64,000 bases of DNA from Methanosarcina flavescens (GCF_001304615.2 NZ_CP032683.1:2046001-2110000), one strand, 5' to 3'; positions 21,282-29,786 are shown, numbered from the stretch's first letter. The notes: generated by a model from the sequence alone, not told the origin. Made by a program: numbers and translations.

Positions 21282-21707
21282 TCACCTGCTCTTACCTGCT
21301 CTTTTTAAACTTTGAAGAATAATCCAGACCTGTTTGAGGCTGTATTCGACACCGAATTCTTGAAGAATCAGATCCTGTACTTCTCGAGTTCGCCAATTAT
21401 TCCGTTCATTAAGCATTTCCTTTAACTTAGCTTTCTGGAGGTCTGAGAGTTTTGAGGGACTTCCGCCTCTAAATTGAGGTATTAAGCCTTCGTAACCCTG
21501 AGCGTTCCATCTCTGTTGCCAGATATTCCCATTGCTTCTGGAGACTCCAACAATATTTGAGGCTTCTTTAACACTTTTGCCTTCATAACGGGCTTTAATA
21601 AATATGAGACGTTGGACAATTCGGGGATTTTTCTCAGCCTTGATCATTTTAACAAGCTTGTCATAACTTAGATGGCGAGTTACGGGGATCTGTTCAGGTT
21701 TGGACAC
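21282..21707 (-). pseudogene. IS630-like helix-turn-helix fragment, truncated transposase
   Basis: The 141-residue product (GTG start) has the HTH of IS630-type transposases (EGKSVKEASNIVGVSRSN) and a second winged-helix part (WRTREVQDLILQEFGVEYSL). It ends just after the second domain, where the family continues with the DDE catalytic domain. No DDE frame follows. The end contains a local duplication, AGAGCAGGT twice in succession. I read it as a remnant, although an HTH-only OrfA is possible. Confidence 0.6.
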
Positions 21708-22176
21708 ATAATATAATATGGCATATATGTATTAAAGTTTGCGTAAAAAATGTAGTAACCCTGGTTCAAAATCACAGGATAACAATGTTTTCATAGCTAG
21801 TAGACTATGTTTTTATTTTTACTTTGATAGAGTTTATTTTTAAGTTTTACAGATTACAAAATATCTAATACATTAGTCAAGTTTTAATCCTTATTTTGGT
21901 AATCGTGATCACGAATAAAGGGATACTGTGCCCATAGTTGAGTTAGATTTTGTAACACAATTTCTTCTAAAACTACTAATTTAGTATTACATATATTTAG
22001 GAAAGTATTTATACAAAATGGTTTTATTAATCTTAATTTTAGCTTAAAAAGTATTGCTATAGTATTAATTTTTATTTTATATGTGTTATTTTATAGGTTA
22101 TAAATTATTTAAAATGCCCCCAGTAATGTAATACTATTGCAATAACTCAAATAATAGAGAAAAAGGAGGAGTTTAA
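21708..22176. other. Long AT-rich region upstream of first binding-protein gene
   Basis: It contains an orphan CRISPR-like repeat (21881-21916) with a 12-bp palindrome TCGTGATCACGA at 21903-21914. Further on, TATA-like stretches (near 22098) and the GGAGGAG of the binding-protein gene are seen. No other gene is visible. Confidence 0.5.
21881..21916. repeat. Orphan degenerate CRISPR-like repeat
   Basis: This 36-nt stretch aligns end to end with the 37-nt array repeat at about 27 positions. It begins GTTTTAATCCTTATTTTGGT and ends CACGAAT, against GTTTCAATCCTTGTTTTAGT and TTCGAAT in the array. No second copy is found nearby. It lies about 2.1 kb beyond the leader end of the array. Confidence 0.6.
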
Positions 22177-22179
22177 ATT
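22165..22179 (+). promoter_or_regulatory. Perfect SD site deciding an ATT start
   Basis: GGAGGAG at 22165-22171 is followed after 5 nt by ATT AAG AAA AAC. The codon before ATT is an in-frame TAA, so translation cannot start further upstream. The next ATG, at 22246, has no SD and would remove the signal peptide. Confidence 0.75.
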
Positions 22180-23838
22180 AAGAAAAACCAGCAATATCTC
22201 TTAATAGGGGTAATAGCCCTAATTGTCGCGGCCGCTTTTGCTTTCATGCCGGCTGGCGAGTCAGTCAGCCCGGTTCCTCAGGTCTCTGATGGATCTGTAT
22301 CCGGATATTCGGATAAATTAGTTTCTGAGGGTTCGGATGAACTTGTGGTAGCAGTAGGTACACATGGAGGAGAGCCAGAAGCAGGTTTTGACCCGATTGC
22401 CGGCTGGGGAAACAGCAGGGAACCTCTGGTTCAGAGCACTCTCTTCAAAAGGGACAGCGAGGCAAACCTGATTAATGACCTGGCTACAAATTATACGGTC
22501 AGCAGCGATGGACTGAAGTGGACCGTTACAATACGGAACGGTGTTAAGTTCCATGACGGAATGCCTTTAACAGCCAGAGACGTAGCATTCACGTTTAACA
22601 CGGCAGCAGATGCAAGTGGAAGTATAGATTTATCCATGCTGGAAAAGGCAACAGCAACCGATGATTATACCATTGAATTTGAGTTGAACGACCCTCAGTC
22701 TACCTTCATCAATAAACTGGTAGCTCTTGGCATTGTCCCTGTGCATGCTTACAACGCTGAGACTTATGGGTCCAATCCAATAGGTTCGGGCCCATATAAG
22801 TTTGTGCAATGGGACAAAGGGCAGCAGGTAATCTTTGAAGCAAATCCGGATTATTACGGACAGGAGCCATACTTCAAAAAGTTAACTATGCTCTTTATGG
22901 GATCAGACTCCGCTTTTGCAGCAGCAAAGGCAGGACAGGTCGACCTGGCTGAAATTCCTGCTTCTTACGCCAATCAGGAAGTAGCTGGGATGAAAATAGT
23001 ATCCCTTGATTCCATAGATGCCCGTGGGATAAGTTTCCCCATGAATCCGAATACTGGAGAAAAAACCGAAAACGGCTATGCAATCGGAAATAATGTGACT
23101 TCTGACCCTGCAATAAGAAAAGCTCTGAACATCGGGATAGACAGGCAGGCGCTGATTGAAGGGGCTTTAAATGGGCAGGGAAAAGAAGAATTCACTGGCG
23201 TAGATAAACTGCCATGGGGTAATAAGGAAGCTATTTTCGAAGACGGAGATATAGAGGAAGCAAAGAAAATTTTAACCGAAGGCGGTTGGATTGATACTGA
23301 TGGAGATGGCATTGTTGAGAAAAATGGCTTGAAAGCCGAATTTACTCTTCTGTATCCTGCAAACGCCCAGGATAGGCAGGCATTAGCGGTTTCAGTAAGT
23401 GAAGAAGCTAAAAAACTGGGTATAAATATTAAAGTCGAGGGCAAGAGCTGGGATGAGATTTACTCCCTTTGCTATTCGACTCCAAATGTTTGGGGTTATG
23501 GATCATTGGACCCGACTGACATATACTTAAGATATTACAGTAAGAGCTACGATCCCTCAACCCATAACAATGTAATAATGTACAACAATTCTGCTGTGGA
23601 CAGTTACCTGAGAAAAGCCATAACCAGCCCTGACCAGGAAACTGCCAACAAAAACTGGCAGCAGGCTGCCTGGGACGGAACAACAGGATTCTCCGCAAAA
23701 GGGGACGCTCCCTGGATGTGGATGGCAACCATTAATTATGTCTACATAATGGATGAAGACCTTGATATCGGAACTCCAAAAATACAGCCCCATGGAGCAG
23801 ATATCTTTGGTAGCATTCTGGAATGGAAACGTGCATGA
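22177..23838 (+). CDS. Peptide/nickel-family ABC substrate-binding protein 1
   Basis: This is an extracellular solute-binding protein of family 5. Starting at ATT 22177 gives 553 residues and a classical signal peptide (KKNQQ, then LLIGVIALIVAAAFAF). Family features include ETYGSNPIGSGPYKFVQWDKGQQ and ADPAIRKALN-type segments near the lid. The ligand (peptide, nickel or another cation) cannot be told from sequence. The gene has its own terminator-like hairpin at 23849 and a long private upstream region, so it is probably a separate transcript. It is closely related to the next gene. Confidence 0.85.
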   Translation: MKKNQQYLLIGVIALIVAAAFAFMPAGESVSPVPQVSDGSVSGYSDKLVSEGSDELVVAVGTHGGEPEAGFDPIAGWGNSREPLVQSTLFKRDSEANLINDLATNYTVSSDGLKWTVTIRNGVKFHDGMPLTARDVAFTFNTAADASGSIDLSMLEKATATDDYTIEFELNDPQSTFINKLVALGIVPVHAYNAETYGSNPIGSGPYKFVQWDKGQQVIFEANPDYYGQEPYFKKLTMLFMGSDSAFAAAKAGQVDLAEIPASYANQEVAGMKIVSLDSIDARGISFPMNPNTGEKTENGYAIGNNVTSDPAIRKALNIGIDRQALIEGALNGQGKEEFTGVDKLPWGNKEAIFEDGDIEEAKKILTEGGWIDTDGDGIVEKNGLKAEFTLLYPANAQDRQALAVSVSEEAKKLGINIKVEGKSWDEIYSLCYSTPNVWGYGSLDPTDIYLRYYSKSYDPSTHNNVIMYNNSAVDSYLRKAITSPDQETANKNWQQAAWDGTTGFSAKGDAPWMWMATINYVYIMDEDLDIGTPKIQPHGADIFGSILEWKRA

Positions 23839-23848
23839 GATTAAACAG

Positions 23849-23884
23849 GGATTTGAGGCATTCACTCAAATCCTCTTATTTTTT
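23849..23884 (+). terminator. Hairpin plus T-run after first binding-protein gene
   Basis: GGATTTGAG at 23849-23857 pairs with CTCAAATCC at 23865-23873 around a 7-nt loop. TCTTATTTTTT follows, consistent with a terminator 11 nt after the stop codon. Confidence 0.6.
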
Positions 23885-24143
23885 CAGGTTATTCGGGAAG
23901 ACTCTTTTCATTCAATAGAATGAATCAAAATTGATAGATACGGAGATAAAAAATTCTTTGGTAACGAAATAAAAACAGAGACTATTGACCCCCTGTTTAG
24001 ATAATATAAAATTATATTTTTCATTTATAGAATACTTATTAAAAGACCCAGTAAGAATTCGAGATTTAGATTTAGTATTACTATATTTTCTAAAATTTAG
24101 ATTAAATACTACATATTTATGACAAAGTACTTATAGAAAAATT

Positions 24144-24185
24144 AGTGTTAATCCATTTAACATTACTTTGAGGAAAAGTAACACT
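24144..24185. promoter_or_regulatory. Possible operator upstream of second binding-protein gene
   Basis: AGTGTTA at 24144-24150 and TAACACT at 24179-24185 form an inverted repeat. A second, weaker inner pair (GTTAA...TTAAC) lies between them. It sits 20-60 nt before a TATA-like box, where archaeal activators or metal repressors bind. I have no evidence for the protein that binds. Confidence 0.3.
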
Positions 24186-24296
24186 TCTACAAATTTTCTG
24201 TAAAATATTATTTAAAAAACTCTCTTTATTTCAGTAAAGATTCATAGAAAAACGCTATGGATTTCAGTCGAGGGTATTCAGGATACTAATATATCA

Positions 24297-24311
24297 GGAG
24301 GAGTTCCGATC
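24297..24311 (+). promoter_or_regulatory. Perfect SD site deciding an ATC start
   Basis: GGAGGAG at 24297-24303 is followed after exactly 5 nt by ATC AAG AAA AAC CAG CAA. The encoded KKNQQ start is the same as in the paralogue at 22177. The first conventional candidate, TTG at 24330, lies 26 nt beyond the SD. Confidence 0.72.
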
Positions 24312-26015
24312 AAGAAAAACCAGCAACATTTGTCTGTAGGGGCATTGATAGTAACTATAGCAGTTATTGGTATTATCAGTTCTATGTCCGGCTGTGTATC
24401 CAGCTCGATGGATGATTCTGGGCTAGCTTCTGCACCAGACTCAGAATCAGGTTCTGTATCAGCCAGCTCGACTTCCAGGGCTTCCGATGAACTGGTAGTA
24501 AATGTATATTCGCATACAGGAGAACCGGAAACAGGATTTGACCCTCTTCTGGGATGGGGATGCGGTCATGTGAATTTTGAGCCATTAATACAGAGTACCC
24601 TTTTTAAATCAGCGGATGATGGCAGTATAGTAAATGACCTTGCTACAGGTTATTCTGTCAGTCCTGATGGGAAGACATGGACTGTAAATATAAGAGACGA
24701 TGTAAAATTCACAGATGGAGAGAAGTTAACAGCTGAAGATGTTGCATTTACATTCAATACTGCAATTGGGAGTAATTCTGAACTCGATATGAGTAACCTT
24801 GAAAACGCCAGGGCAGTAAATGAGACTGCAGTTGAATTCAAACTAAAAGAGCCCCAGTCCAGTTTCATCTGGAGGCTCAGGTATGTTGGAATCGTGCCTG
24901 AACATGCCTATAAAAAAGAGACCTATGGAGCCAGCCCTATAGGGTCAGGCCCGTACAAAATGGTACAGTGGGATAAAGGTCAGCAGGCAATATTTGAACT
25001 TAATGACAATTACTATGGACAGAAGCCGTATTTCAAAAGAATAACCATGTTATTCATGGACAAGGACACTGCATTTGCAGCTGCAAAGTCCGGCAAAGTA
25101 GACATAGCTGAAATCGATATCATCCATGCAAATCAGACCGTAGATGGCTATGACATAATCTCGCTTCCCTCCTCAAGAGCATTCGGAATTTCTTTCCCAA
25201 TGCAGAACGATACCGGCAAAAAAAGCCTTACAGGAGACCCTATAGGCAATAATGTAACATCGGACATCGCAATTAGAAAAGCATTAAACACGGGGATTGA
25301 CAGAAAAGCAATACTTGACGGGGTAATATACGGAAAGGGAGATGTAGAATATACAGGTGTGGATCAGAGGATCTTTGGAAATCCAGAAGCAAGGATCAAC
25401 GACTCGAATCCTGAAGAAGCTAAAAAAATACTTGAAGATGCAGGCTGGAAAGACACAGATAGCGACGGTATCCGGGAAAAAGACGGAACTAAAGCAGAAT
25501 TTGACCTGTATTATTCTTCATCCGACCAGACAAGACAGGCTCTTTCAGTAGCCGTAAGTGAACAGGCTAAAAAATTAGGTATAAAAATAAACCTTGTCGG
25601 TACAAACTGGGATGAAATATACGCAAACCAGTACAGTTCAGCCGTTTTATACGCCTACAGCAGTATAGATACTTTCAATCTGTACCAGCAGTATCATACT
25701 AAAGAAGCTGATGATACATACAAAAACCCTGGCCTTTACAGCAATCCTGTCGTAGACGGGTATCTGGAAACAGCTTTGAGAACTTCAGACCAGGATCAGG
25801 CTATCAAAAACTGGCAGCTAGCTGCGTATGATGGAAATACAGGCTTTGGGCCTGCAGGAGATGCTACATGGTTATGGCTTGTAACAATGGATTATCTCTA
25901 TGCAGTTGATGAAACCATAGATATAGGAACCCCGGAGAAAAACGCCGGATCAGATATTTTAGGAAATATTTACGAATGGACAAGGAAAAACGCAACCGAT
26001 CCTGCTCAAAAATGA
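24309..26015 (+). CDS. Peptide/nickel-family ABC substrate-binding lipoprotein 2
   Basis: This paralogue of the upstream gene has 568 residues if read from ATC 24309. The signal segment ends in SSMSGC, a lipobox-like site where Cys would anchor the protein to the membrane lipid. A Ser-rich linker follows. Shared segments include GEPETGFDPLLGWG, IGSGPYKMVQWDKGQQAIFE and SDIAIRKALNTGIDRKA. The first binding protein has no such Cys. The pair may offer two specificities or a soluble and an anchored form to the same permease. A hairpin and T-run at 26077 suggest a separate transcript. Confidence 0.85.
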   Translation: MKKNQQHLSVGALIVTIAVIGIISSMSGCVSSSMDDSGLASAPDSESGSVSASSTSRASDELVVNVYSHTGEPETGFDPLLGWGCGHVNFEPLIQSTLFKSADDGSIVNDLATGYSVSPDGKTWTVNIRDDVKFTDGEKLTAEDVAFTFNTAIGSNSELDMSNLENARAVNETAVEFKLKEPQSSFIWRLRYVGIVPEHAYKKETYGASPIGSGPYKMVQWDKGQQAIFELNDNYYGQKPYFKRITMLFMDKDTAFAAAKSGKVDIAEIDIIHANQTVDGYDIISLPSSRAFGISFPMQNDTGKKSLTGDPIGNNVTSDIAIRKALNTGIDRKAILDGVIYGKGDVEYTGVDQRIFGNPEARINDSNPEEAKKILEDAGWKDTDSDGIREKDGTKAEFDLYYSSSDQTRQALSVAVSEQAKKLGIKINLVGTNWDEIYANQYSSAVLYAYSSIDTFNLYQQYHTKEADDTYKNPGLYSNPVVDGYLETALRTSDQDQAIKNWQLAAYDGNTGFGPAGDATWLWLVTMDYLYAVDETIDIGTPEKNAGSDILGNIYEWTRKNATDPAQK

Positions 26016-26299: not shown

Positions 26300-27292
26300 G
26301 TGTTGGATACCGAAAAAATAGCAAGTTTTGCAGGGAAAAAAATACTCAGGCTGGTAAGTCTTCTTGCTGTAGTTTGTTTTGTAAGTTTCATGCTTATTCA
26401 ATACTCTCCCATAGACCCTGTTAGAGCCTATATAGGCGAAATGACTGTCAGTGAAGAGCATAAAACCAAACTTGAAGAATACTGGGGAGTCAATACCCCT
26501 CCGAAGGAAAAATTCCTGAACTGGGCAGGAAATATTCTCAAAGGGGATTTTGGAGTATCATTGATTTACCGGACGCCGGTCGCCGATGTGATTAAAGAAA
26601 GATCTATGGCCTCTTTCGTCCTTATGGCAACTTCATGGCTGTTCTCAGGAGTACTGGGTTTCATTCTGGGGATAGTAGCAGGAATGAATAAGGGCACATG
26701 GGTTGATAGAGCAATAAAAACTTACTGTTACGTGCTGGCAGCCACTCCGACATTCTGGCTGGCACTGGTTATGCTGATGGTATTTTCCGTAAGTCTAGGG
26801 TGGTTCCCGATAGGCTTGAGTGTGCCCATAGGGGTTACGGCTGACAACGTGACTTTTTTTGACCAGGTACGGCATTTAATTCTCCCTGCATTAACCCTGA
26901 GTTTACTGGGAGTAGCCCAGATCGCAATGTTTACCCGAGAAAAACTAATCGAAGTTTTGTCCAGCGATTATGTGTTATTTGCAAAAGCACGAGGTGAAAA
27001 AGGGCTGGACCTGGTGTTGAGACATGGAATCAGGAACGTTGCACTTCCTGCTATTACTCTGCAATTTTTAGGGTTCAGCGAATTGTTCGGAGGAGCAGTT
27101 CTGGTTGAACAGGTTTTTTCCTATCCTGGAATAGGGCAGGCAGCAGTAGCAGCAGGATTGAGGTCTGATGTGCCTCTGCTTTTAGGGATAGTCATCTTCA
27201 GTGCAATATTTGTCTTTTCCGGAAACCTGATTGCTGATATTATTTACGAATTCGTTGATCCTAGAATAAAACAGCAGGAGGCAACAGTATGA
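26300..27292 (+). CDS. ABC permease of the DppB/NikB type
   Basis: This 330-residue membrane protein carries the NikB-type N-terminus (RLVSLLAVVCFVSFMLIQYSP) and about six membrane segments. The cytoplasmic EAA-like loop is YVLFAKARGEKGLDLVLRHGIRN near 232-254, where the ATPases dock. The start is GTG 26300 with GAGGGA about 6 nt upstream. The stop overlaps a 9-codon mini-ORF that leads into the next permease gene. Confidence 0.88.
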   Translation: MLDTEKIASFAGKKILRLVSLLAVVCFVSFMLIQYSPIDPVRAYIGEMTVSEEHKTKLEEYWGVNTPPKEKFLNWAGNILKGDFGVSLIYRTPVADVIKERSMASFVLMATSWLFSGVLGFILGIVAGMNKGTWVDRAIKTYCYVLAATPTFWLALVMLMVFSVSLGWFPIGLSVPIGVTADNVTFFDQVRHLILPALTLSLLGVAQIAMFTREKLIEVLSSDYVLFAKARGEKGLDLVLRHGIRNVALPAITLQFLGFSELFGGAVLVEQVFSYPGIGQAAVAAGLRSDVPLLLGIVIFSAIFVFSGNLIADIIYEFVDPRIKQQEATV

Positions 27293-27318
27293 ACATTATA
27301 GAGGAGGCTGGAATATGA
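27289..27318 (+). other. Nine-codon bridging mini-ORF between permease genes
   Basis: ATG at 27289 overlaps the stop of the first permease (TATGA), and its own TGA overlaps the ATG of the second permease (ATATGAG). It encodes MNIIEEAGI. GAGGAGG inside it is the SD of the second permease. It may carry ribosomes across the gap. Confidence 0.4.
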
Positions 27319-28172
27319 GCACTGCTGTTGTAACAGCTAACAAAGGAGTATTCCGGGGACTGAACCTGAGGCAGAAAACCCTGTTGATAATAGGTCTGAC
27401 ATCACTTTTGCTGCTTACGATAGTGGTTTCAAGTGTCACTCTGGATGAAGATTCCTTAAAGACTGATTTTGGCTCCAAAAACCTTAACCCTTCAGCTGAA
27501 CATCCGTTTGGGACAGACTGGATGGGAAGGGACATGTTTATACGGACTGTCAAAGGGCTTGGTTTAAGCATTCTGGTCGGAGCTTTTGCATCTACAATCA
27601 GTACCGTACTGGCTGTAGTTCTGGGCTTGCTATCAAGCGCAGGAAAAGTTGCAGATTCCTTTATTTCCTGGCTGGTAGACCTGTTCCTTTCGATTCCTCA
27701 TCTTCTATTGATAATCCTCATTTCCATAGGGCTCGGAGGAGGGGCTTATGGAGTCATTATGGGTGTCGCGTTAACGCACTGGACAAGCCTGACCAGGGTA
27801 GTAAGAGCAGAGATCAAGCAACTAAAGACCCAGGAATACATCCATATTTCGAGGAACCTTGGAAAATCAAAATGGTGGATAGCTACAAAACATATCCTGC
27901 CCCATTTAGTTCCCCAGATATTGCTTGGCGCGATTTTGATGTTTCCTCATGCCATTCTTCACGAAGCTTCGGTCACATTCCTTGGCTTTGGGCTTTCCCC
28001 ACACGAACCGGCGATTGGTATCATTTTATCAGAGTCTATGAAATACCTTTCCGCAGGATACTGGTGGCTTGCATTTTTCCCTGGGCTATCACTCCTGATT
28101 GTGGTTCTGGCATTTGATATGATAGGAGACAATCTGGGAAGAATAATTGATCCGAAAACTGCTCATGAATGA
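27315..28172 (+). CDS. ABC permease of the DppC/NikC type
   Basis: The 285-residue protein starts at ATG 27315 with GAGGAGG 7 nt upstream. It has the NikC hallmark HPFGTDWMGRDMFIRTVKG and a docking loop KTQEYIHISRNLGKSKWWI. It ends with FDMIGDNLGRIIDP, the family's conserved tail. It pairs with the preceding permease to form the membrane channel. Confidence 0.88.
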   Translation: MSTAVVTANKGVFRGLNLRQKTLLIIGLTSLLLLTIVVSSVTLDEDSLKTDFGSKNLNPSAEHPFGTDWMGRDMFIRTVKGLGLSILVGAFASTISTVLAVVLGLLSSAGKVADSFISWLVDLFLSIPHLLLIILISIGLGGGAYGVIMGVALTHWTSLTRVVRAEIKQLKTQEYIHISRNLGKSKWWIATKHILPHLVPQILLGAILMFPHAILHEASVTFLGFGLSPHEPAIGIILSESMKYLSAGYWWLAFFPGLSLLIVVLAFDMIGDNLGRIIDPKTAHE

Positions 28173-28207: not shown

Positions 28208-29185
28208 ATGAAAAGTAAAGCAGAAATTAATGCTGAAGAAAGCAGGAAGACTGAAGCACTGTTAAAAGTAAAAGACCTCTCACTTTCCTTTGTTCAATAT
28301 ACCTCAGGGCTCAGGCAGACTGAATTAAAGGTAATCTCCAATTTGAGTATAGAGGCTTATAATGGAAAAATTTTAGCTGTAGTGGGATCAAGCGGTTCCG
28401 GAAAAAGCCTTCTTGCCCATGCGATTTTAGGAATTTTGCCTTCAAATGCAAAACTCAATGGTAAGATAGAATATGATGGCGAAGAGCTTACCCAGGAAAG
28501 AAAGGAAGCATTAAGAGGTAAAGAAATAGCTCTGGTTCCCCAATCCGTAACTTATCTGGACCCTTTGATGAGGGTTTCCGATCAGGTAATAGGGTGTGTG
28601 GAGGAAGAAAAAGCAGGCTTGATGAAGAAGCTCCAGAAGGAAATCTTTCAGAGATACGGCTTAAAACCGGATGTTGAAAAGATGTTTCCACATGAGCTCT
28701 CAGGCGGGATGACCAGAAGAGTTCTGGTTTCCACTGCAGTAATAAGATCTGCAAAGCTTGTAATTGCAGACGAGCCTACTCCTGGATTGGACGAAAAGAC
28801 TCTGAATGAGACGCTGGATTATTTCAAAGACATGGCAAATAAAGGCTGTGCAGTAATAATTATAACTCATGATATAGAGGCAGCACTGAAGATTTCCGAT
28901 AAAATTGCCGTCTTCTATGCAGGCACAGTCCTGGAAGTAGCTAATGTTGAGGATTTCAAGAACGATGGCGAGAACTTAAGGCATCCATACACCCGAGCCC
29001 TCTGGAACGCGCTTCCCCAAAATAAATTCCAGGTAATTAAAGGTCATCAACCAATGCAAGATGAAGTCATTGACGGATGCATCTTTTATGAAAGATGTTC
29101 CAAAAAGAAAGCTCTATGCTCTCAGGGTATCCCTGAGCTTAGGCAGGTCAATGGAGGAGTGGTGAGGTGCAACAATGTATCTTAA
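28208..29185 (+). CDS. ABC ATPase of the DppD/NikD type
   Basis: The 325-residue ATPase has Walker A GSSGSGKSL, the Q-loop PQSVTYLDP, signature LSGGMTRRV and Walker B LVIADEPTPGLD. The C-terminus has the oligopeptide-transporter Cys cluster GCIFYERCSKKKALC and a final VRCNN. GGTGAG lies 6 nt before the ATG. It overlaps the next ATPase gene by 11 nt. Confidence 0.88.
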   Translation: MKSKAEINAEESRKTEALLKVKDLSLSFVQYTSGLRQTELKVISNLSIEAYNGKILAVVGSSGSGKSLLAHAILGILPSNAKLNGKIEYDGEELTQERKEALRGKEIALVPQSVTYLDPLMRVSDQVIGCVEEEKAGLMKKLQKEIFQRYGLKPDVEKMFPHELSGGMTRRVLVSTAVIRSAKLVIADEPTPGLDEKTLNETLDYFKDMANKGCAVIIITHDIEAALKISDKIAVFYAGTVLEVANVEDFKNDGENLRHPYTRALWNALPQNKFQVIKGHQPMQDEVIDGCIFYERCSKKKALCSQGIPELRQVNGGVVRCNNVS

Positions 29186-29786
29186 AGGCGAAAATATAAC
29201 TTTCGGATACAAAAAGAATAATTTAATTTTAAAAGACGTTAATATTTCTTTAGGCAGTGGAGAAATACTGGGACTGGTTGGAGATAGTGGAAGCGGGAAA
29301 TCGACCTTATGTAAGATATTAGCTGGCTATGAAACCAGGTATAAGGGAAAAGTGAGTCTGGATGGAAAACCTCTCCCGTCAAAAGGCTATAATCCGGTTC
29401 AACTTATCTTCCAGCATCCGGAAAAAGCTGTAAATCCCAAATGGAGAATGGAAGATATCTTAAATGAGGGGCATACCGTTTCACAGGATATTTTAGACTC
29501 ATTCGGAATAAAAAAGAGCTGGCTTAACCGATGGCCAAATGAGCTTTCCGGAGGAGAACTCCAGAGATTCGCCCTTGCCCGGGCTTTAAGCCCTAAAACC
29601 AGGTTTTTAATTGCCGATGAAATAACTACAATGGTAGACGCTATTACTCAGGCTCAGATCTGGAATGTACTTTTGAGTATAGTTGAAGAGCTTAATATTG
29701 GAGTACTGGTCGTGAGCCATGATAGGAATTTAATTAATAGATTATGCCACGATACTATTTATTTAAGAGATATATCCAGTGCTTGA
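29175..29786 (+). CDS. ABC ATPase of the DppF/NikE type, short
   Basis: This 203-residue ATPase has Walker A GDSGSGKST, signature LSGGELQRFALARAL and Walker B FLIADEITT with switch H in VVSHDR. It lacks the C-terminal oligopeptide-type extension of its partner, so it is a minimal domain. It is the last gene of the importer operon. Confidence 0.87.
   Translation: MYLKGENITFGYKKNNLILKDVNISLGSGEILGLVGDSGSGKSTLCKILAGYETRYKGKVSLDGKPLPSKGYNPVQLIFQHPEKAVNPKWRMEDILNEGHTVSQDILDSFGIKKSWLNRWPNELSGGELQRFALARALSPKTRFLIADEITTMVDAITQAQIWNVLLSIVEELNIGVLVVSHDRNLINRLCHDTIYLRDISSA

Follow-up and report, generated by a model that had tools for sequence, protein, structure and literature searches.

Putative AUU and AUC start codons behind a conserved Shine-Dalgarno sequence in paralogous binding-protein genes of Methanosarcina

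Non-canonical start codons in bacteria and at this locus

The infC gene begins with AUU in Escherichia coli and with ATC in Streptomyces, pcnB also begins with AUU, and autoregulation of infC by IF3 has been proven. In Staphylococcus aureus and Bacillus, infC (AUA), cvfC1 (AUU) and ccpN (AUA) start behind an extended Shine-Dalgarno sequence (SD), and reporters with non-canonical starts reach roughly 10% of the AUG level (PMC13009471). Streptomyces sigR has GTC in 32 of 34 cases and GTT in 2, with an extensive conserved ribosome binding site and demonstrated repression by IF3 (PMC5472188). According to a 2021 review, elongation and termination are the only stages at which non-canonical translation has been demonstrated in archaea (PMC8211752), and in the open literature that we searched no archaeal counterpart of the attenuated non-AUG starts of bacteria seems to be on record.

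Here we describe two solute-binding protein (SBP) genes of Methanosarcina flavescens, found in a 64,000-nucleotide stretch of its genome (NZ_CP032683.1:2046001-2110000, hereafter the window), which appear to start at ATT and ATC; a search of the open literature for ATT/AUU starts in Methanosarcina returned nothing on these genes. Like infC, pcnB and ccpN, they have a near-cognate codon where relatives have a canonical one, a strong and well-spaced SD, and conservation of both across species. What they share with the S. aureus and Bacillus cases is a conserved AUH start (AUU, AUC or AUA; ATH in DNA) at a strong, closely spaced SD. Those cases differ in that they are bacterial, occur where IF3 is present and concern regulators, a small protein and IF3 itself, and their starts were proven by initiation profiling and reporters, whereas the SBP starts are predicted from sequence. 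Shared with infC and pcnB more generally is a conserved AUU or AUC as the sole start codon, but infC is autoregulated by IF3, a factor that to our knowledge is absent from archaea, in which aIF1 is the comparable fidelity factor. With sigR the common element is a non-canonical start held across a genus, the purpose in sigR being stoichiometry with RsrA.

The two start sites and their conservation

Both genes carry GGAGGAG followed by five nucleotides and the start codon, the intervening sequence being TTTAA before ATT in gene 1 and TTCCG before ATC in gene 2, and both continue with AAG AAA AAC CAG CAA and a hydrophobic stretch (Table 1). The sequence thus agrees with the earlier note, which had proposed these starts and had pointed to the in-frame TAA directly 5' of the ATT. 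Its further claim was that no ATG, GTG or TTG gives a signal peptide with an SD. The first such codons in frame downstream are those that the note had named, ATG 22246 (codon 24 of gene 1) and TTG 24330 (codon 8 of gene 2), and they have no SD. Across the 3.28 Mb genome the pattern GGAGG-N7-ATH-AAR-AAR occurs three times; two of the three are the SBP genes, and the third meets a stop three codons on. Starts were checked in three of the four downstream transport genes, and these are GTG, ATG and ATG. No Rfam match was found in the 20-31 kb part of the window.

Table 1. Features of the binding-protein locus, in window coordinates
Feature	Position	Strand	Basis
Shine-Dalgarno GGAGGAG, SBP gene 1	22165..22171	+	read in sequence; GGAGG at -12..-8 in 46/46 copies
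In-frame TAA abutting start codon, SBP gene 1	22174..22176	+	sequence
Putative ATT start codon, SBP gene 1	22177..22179	+	ATT/ATC/ATA in 47/47 copies
SBP gene 1, SBP_bac_5, YntA/NikA-like, 553 aa, KKNQQ signal peptide	22177..23838	+	profile and structure-relative matches
Shine-Dalgarno GGAGGAG, SBP gene 2	24297..24303	+	sequence and alignment
Putative ATC start codon, SBP gene 2	24309..24311	+	sequence and alignment of copies
SBP gene 2, SBP_bac_5, 568 aa, KKNQQ signal peptide with SGC lipobox-like site	24309..26015	+	profile matches
Permease gene (BPD_transp_1), GTG start, ordinary control	26300..27292	+	
Permease gene (BPD_transp_1), ATG start behind GGAGG, ordinary control	27315..28172	+	
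ABC ATPase gene (ABC_tran and oligo_HPY), ATG start	28208..29185	+	
ABC ATPase gene (ABC_tran)	29175..29786	+	

Both products match Pfam PF00496 (SBP_bac_5) far above its gathering score of 32.4, with 266 bits for gene 1 and 251 bits for gene 2 (E 6e-79 and 3e-74). Among solved structures, gene 1 is best matched by 3ry3, a putative solute-binding protein, and 4ofl, the Yersinia nickel-binding protein YntA, both of which align across the entire mature protein (E 3e-119 to 1e-119). The genes resemble nickel/peptide binding proteins of the YntA/NikA type in this SBP_bac_5 likeness, and here they precede two permease and two ATPase genes, but they fall under the 393-bit cut-off of the NikA equivalog TIGR02294 (125.7 for gene 1, 174.1 for gene 2), and a nickel or peptide substrate is only putative. 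Just 5' of the SBP genes, on the minus strand at 21282-21707, lies an HTH_32/HTH_23 protein that resembles an insertion-element helper ORF, and from 17010 to about 19800 the window holds a CRISPR array in which a 37-nt repeat (GTTTCAATCCTTGTTTTAGTGGATCTTGCATTCGAAT) recurs at least 39 times at a spacing of about 73 nt.

Protein similarity, which takes no account of the start codon, was used to collect relatives; the start regions come from 24 Methanosarcina genomes and two MAGs recorded as Methanosarcinaceae archaeon. Among 47 SBP copies, many of which share few ancestors and so are non-independent, the start codon is ATT in 37, ATC in 9 and ATA in 1, with ATG, GTG and TTG in none. Forty-six of these were located by script and form the alignment set (ATT 36, ATC 9, ATA 1); the 47th, which lies in genome G020 and is frame-shifted farther down, was added separately and reads ATT AAT AAA AAT CAG. 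One Methanosarcina genome has three paralogues, all with ATT. Three copies, one each in genomes G020, G021 and G024, carry an internal frameshift or stop, and are either decaying or misassembled. Invariant in the 46 aligned copies are GGAGG at -12 to -8, T at -5, A and T at +1 and +2, and the 7-nt spacing. Columns -14 to -40 are near-random, which argues against coding sequence 5' of the start, and a stop codon lies directly before the ATH in 19 of the 46. The KK-hydrophobic N-terminus is conserved and starts exactly at the ATH. In codons 2-22, pN is lower than pS in 307 of 364 closer pairs, a signal-peptide contrast that is modest (0.22 v 0.32).

Outside the genus the picture changes. ATG stands at exactly the aligned codon in two Methanomethylovorans sequences and a Methanococcoides MAG, one codon upstream in a Methanobacteriaceae MAG and one codon downstream in two Acetobacterium sequences, and the SDs of these ATG relatives are weaker than GGAGGAG. 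The earlier note had named orthologues with ATG as the observation that would count against it. No ATG occurs in the Methanosarcina copies, and its presence in the Methanomethylovorans and Methanococcoides relatives indicates that ATG is compatible with the protein. Taken with the genus-wide conservation and the absent alternative start, the outgroup ATG at the same or an adjacent position lends strong support to AUU and AUC as the start codons. In the SBP tree the Methanomethylovorans ATG clade adjoins the two ATT MAGs within the gene-1 group (support 86/72). Because the ATG clade nests there, parsimony suggests that ATH probably predates the duplication into genes 1 and 2, with one return to ATG accompanied by a weaker SD.

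Decoding, and near-cognate starts in other genes

Among the tRNAs located in the genome one is of initiator type; it has a CAU anticodon, A1-U72 and an anticodon stem with three G-C pairs. The single Ile-GAU tRNA is of elongator type, and no dedicated initiator-type tRNA with an Ile anticodon was found among them. Because the sole initiator tRNA found has CAU, the ordinary initiator would have to decode AUH despite a mismatch at the third base. The region around the SBP starts is weakly folded, less so than the gene body, and RNAalifold predicted no conserved RNA structure there.

A sample of 864 kb from the M. flavescens genome (G000) was surveyed for such starts, and candidates were sorted into true and false by their orthologues. 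ATH starts behind GGAGG are rare genome-wide on this sample, ATH at 7 nt past GGAGG summing to 5 against a background of about 2 per spacing. Out of 545 ORFs sampled, about 49 have a canonical start that follows GGAGG. The clearest further case is mtbC, which encodes a dimethylamine corrinoid protein (NCBIfam NF041607; G000:C1:2174314-2174952). All 22 Methanosarcina orthologues begin with ATT, as do those of three other genera of the family; two further genera have ACG, and in others the same position reads ATG AGC AAA GAA GAA. An MFS transporter (G000:C1:3055515-3057119) has ATA in 8, ATC in 1 and GTA in 1 of ten orthologues, nine of them with GGAGG, and a second group of the same transporter has GTG in 5/5 with a weak SD and no GGAGG. 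Behind AGGAGGGG, the start of a TPR gene (G000:C1:3207054-3208553) drifts from species to species among ATG, ACG, ATA and ATT. In a NosD-like secreted surface family, close members have ATA or ATT at GGAGG-N7, and in many copies a further in-frame codon, ATG or GTG, lies at -18, six codons upstream, so that the start is ambiguous. A GH15 gene has ATT in two species only, M. flavescens and one other. A further candidate, at 2494518-2495327, proved a false positive with its real start at an internal ATG.

Across these families near-cognate starts sit behind GGAGG and canonical ones in most cases do not, which points to a trade-off between SD strength and start codon; since the search demanded GGAGG, this association is partly selected for in M. 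flavescens itself, unlike in the orthologues.

Readings of the conserved codon

We consider it probable, with some reserve, that both genes are initiated at AUU or AUC by the CAU initiator behind a strong SD, that the codon caps synthesis, and that the pair is kept by selection. The initiator Met-tRNA would mispair at the third position of the codon, while GGAGGAG, precisely spaced as GGAGG-N7, would hold the 30S subunit in place. The weak AUH codon would then cap initiation at a level far lower than that of AUG behind an identical SD, and the combination of strong SD and weak codon would be retained by selection throughout Methanosarcina. The sequence shows the position, spacing and conservation of the codon, the absence of alternative starts and the single CAU initiator tRNA, while translation from the ATH, its lowered efficiency and selection for the lowered level are inferred. 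The argument for initiation at ATH is much stronger than that for selection against ATG. In M. mazei 79% of the longer genes start with ATG (PMC11456600), and a favoured ATG would presumably have come back, which makes its absence noteworthy. In the same SBP alignment 85 of 95 four-fold degenerate columns hold at least one G and 10 hold none, and among T-rich four-fold columns 12 of 16 hold G and 4 do not, so that, taken alone, a missing ATG would arise at an unselected column with a probability of about 0.1 to 0.25. The selection argument from this absence is accordingly of moderate weight.

The serious rival to capped synthesis is drift without function, in which a very strong SD makes initiation in Methanosarcinaceae tolerant, ATG decays to ATH or ACG and nothing selects it back. 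We regard this as possible, if clearly the lesser prospect. It accommodates the near-cognate starts of unrelated genes behind GGAGG, the wandering start of the TPR gene and the restricted distribution of ATT in GH15, and a G-less column is, as noted, not rare. Set against it are the complete lack of ATG in the SBP family and in Methanosarcina mtbC, unlike the TPR gene, and the invariant GGAGG and spacing of the SBP copies, which imply a constrained site. What counts against capping is that mtbC is a catabolic gene and expected to be highly expressed, which is awkward for a codon meant to cap synthesis.

A broader reading would make the output of a Methanosarcinaceae gene set (the nickel/peptide binding proteins, mtbC, the MFS transporter and possibly the NosD-like surface proteins) depend on near-cognate AUH or ACG starts traded against SD strength. 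The set would perhaps be co-regulated through aIF1 stringency, as a first archaeal control layer at the level of the start codon; we find this doubtful, though worth stating. Active regulation of the SBP genes themselves, in which the AUH start would answer to aIF1 or another fidelity state as the infC AUU and sigR GTC do with IF3, seems to us unlikely. It would have the bacterial precedents behind it (PMC5472188; PMC13009471), and a passage in PMC6237735, citing S. solfataricus work, holds that archaeal aIF1 rejects erroneous initiation complexes and destabilises those on non-AUG mRNA. The aIF1 (SUI1) gene is present once per genome, no extra copies having been found. The sequence reveals no link between aIF1 and the SBP genes, though, and these have no evident physiological tie to mtbC or the MFS gene. 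Modulation of AUH starts by aIF1 level or activity is speculative, and a constitutive cap fits the evidence at least as well as active control. M. acetivorans and M. mazei are tractable organisms, and an AUH start conserved across the genus offers a ready system for in vivo tests of archaeal start-codon fidelity and aIF1.

The remaining accounts deny the start itself. Initiation at ATG 22246 and TTG 24330, yielding proteins with an incomplete signal peptide, is what gene callers limited to ATG, GTG and TTG would pick, and such callers will truncate these SBPs, dropping their signal peptides, and may misplace the mtbC start. We hold it to be very improbable, given the missing SDs, a first downstream canonical codon that ranges from codon 8 to 49 among copies, and a conserved N-terminus that begins at the ATH. 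Methanosarcina decodes UAG as pyrrolysine, and TAG precedes the ATH in some copies, so an upstream start might reach the frame by readthrough or by frameshift at GGAGG; the varied preceding codon (TAA, TAG, TGA, TTG, CCG, CGC or TAT) and the unconserved region upstream of -14 make this scarcely credible. From two copies the earlier note had judged a sequencing error unlikely, which if anything understated the case; the chance of a sequencing or assembly error is negligible, since independent assemblies from many sources agree over the 47 copies.
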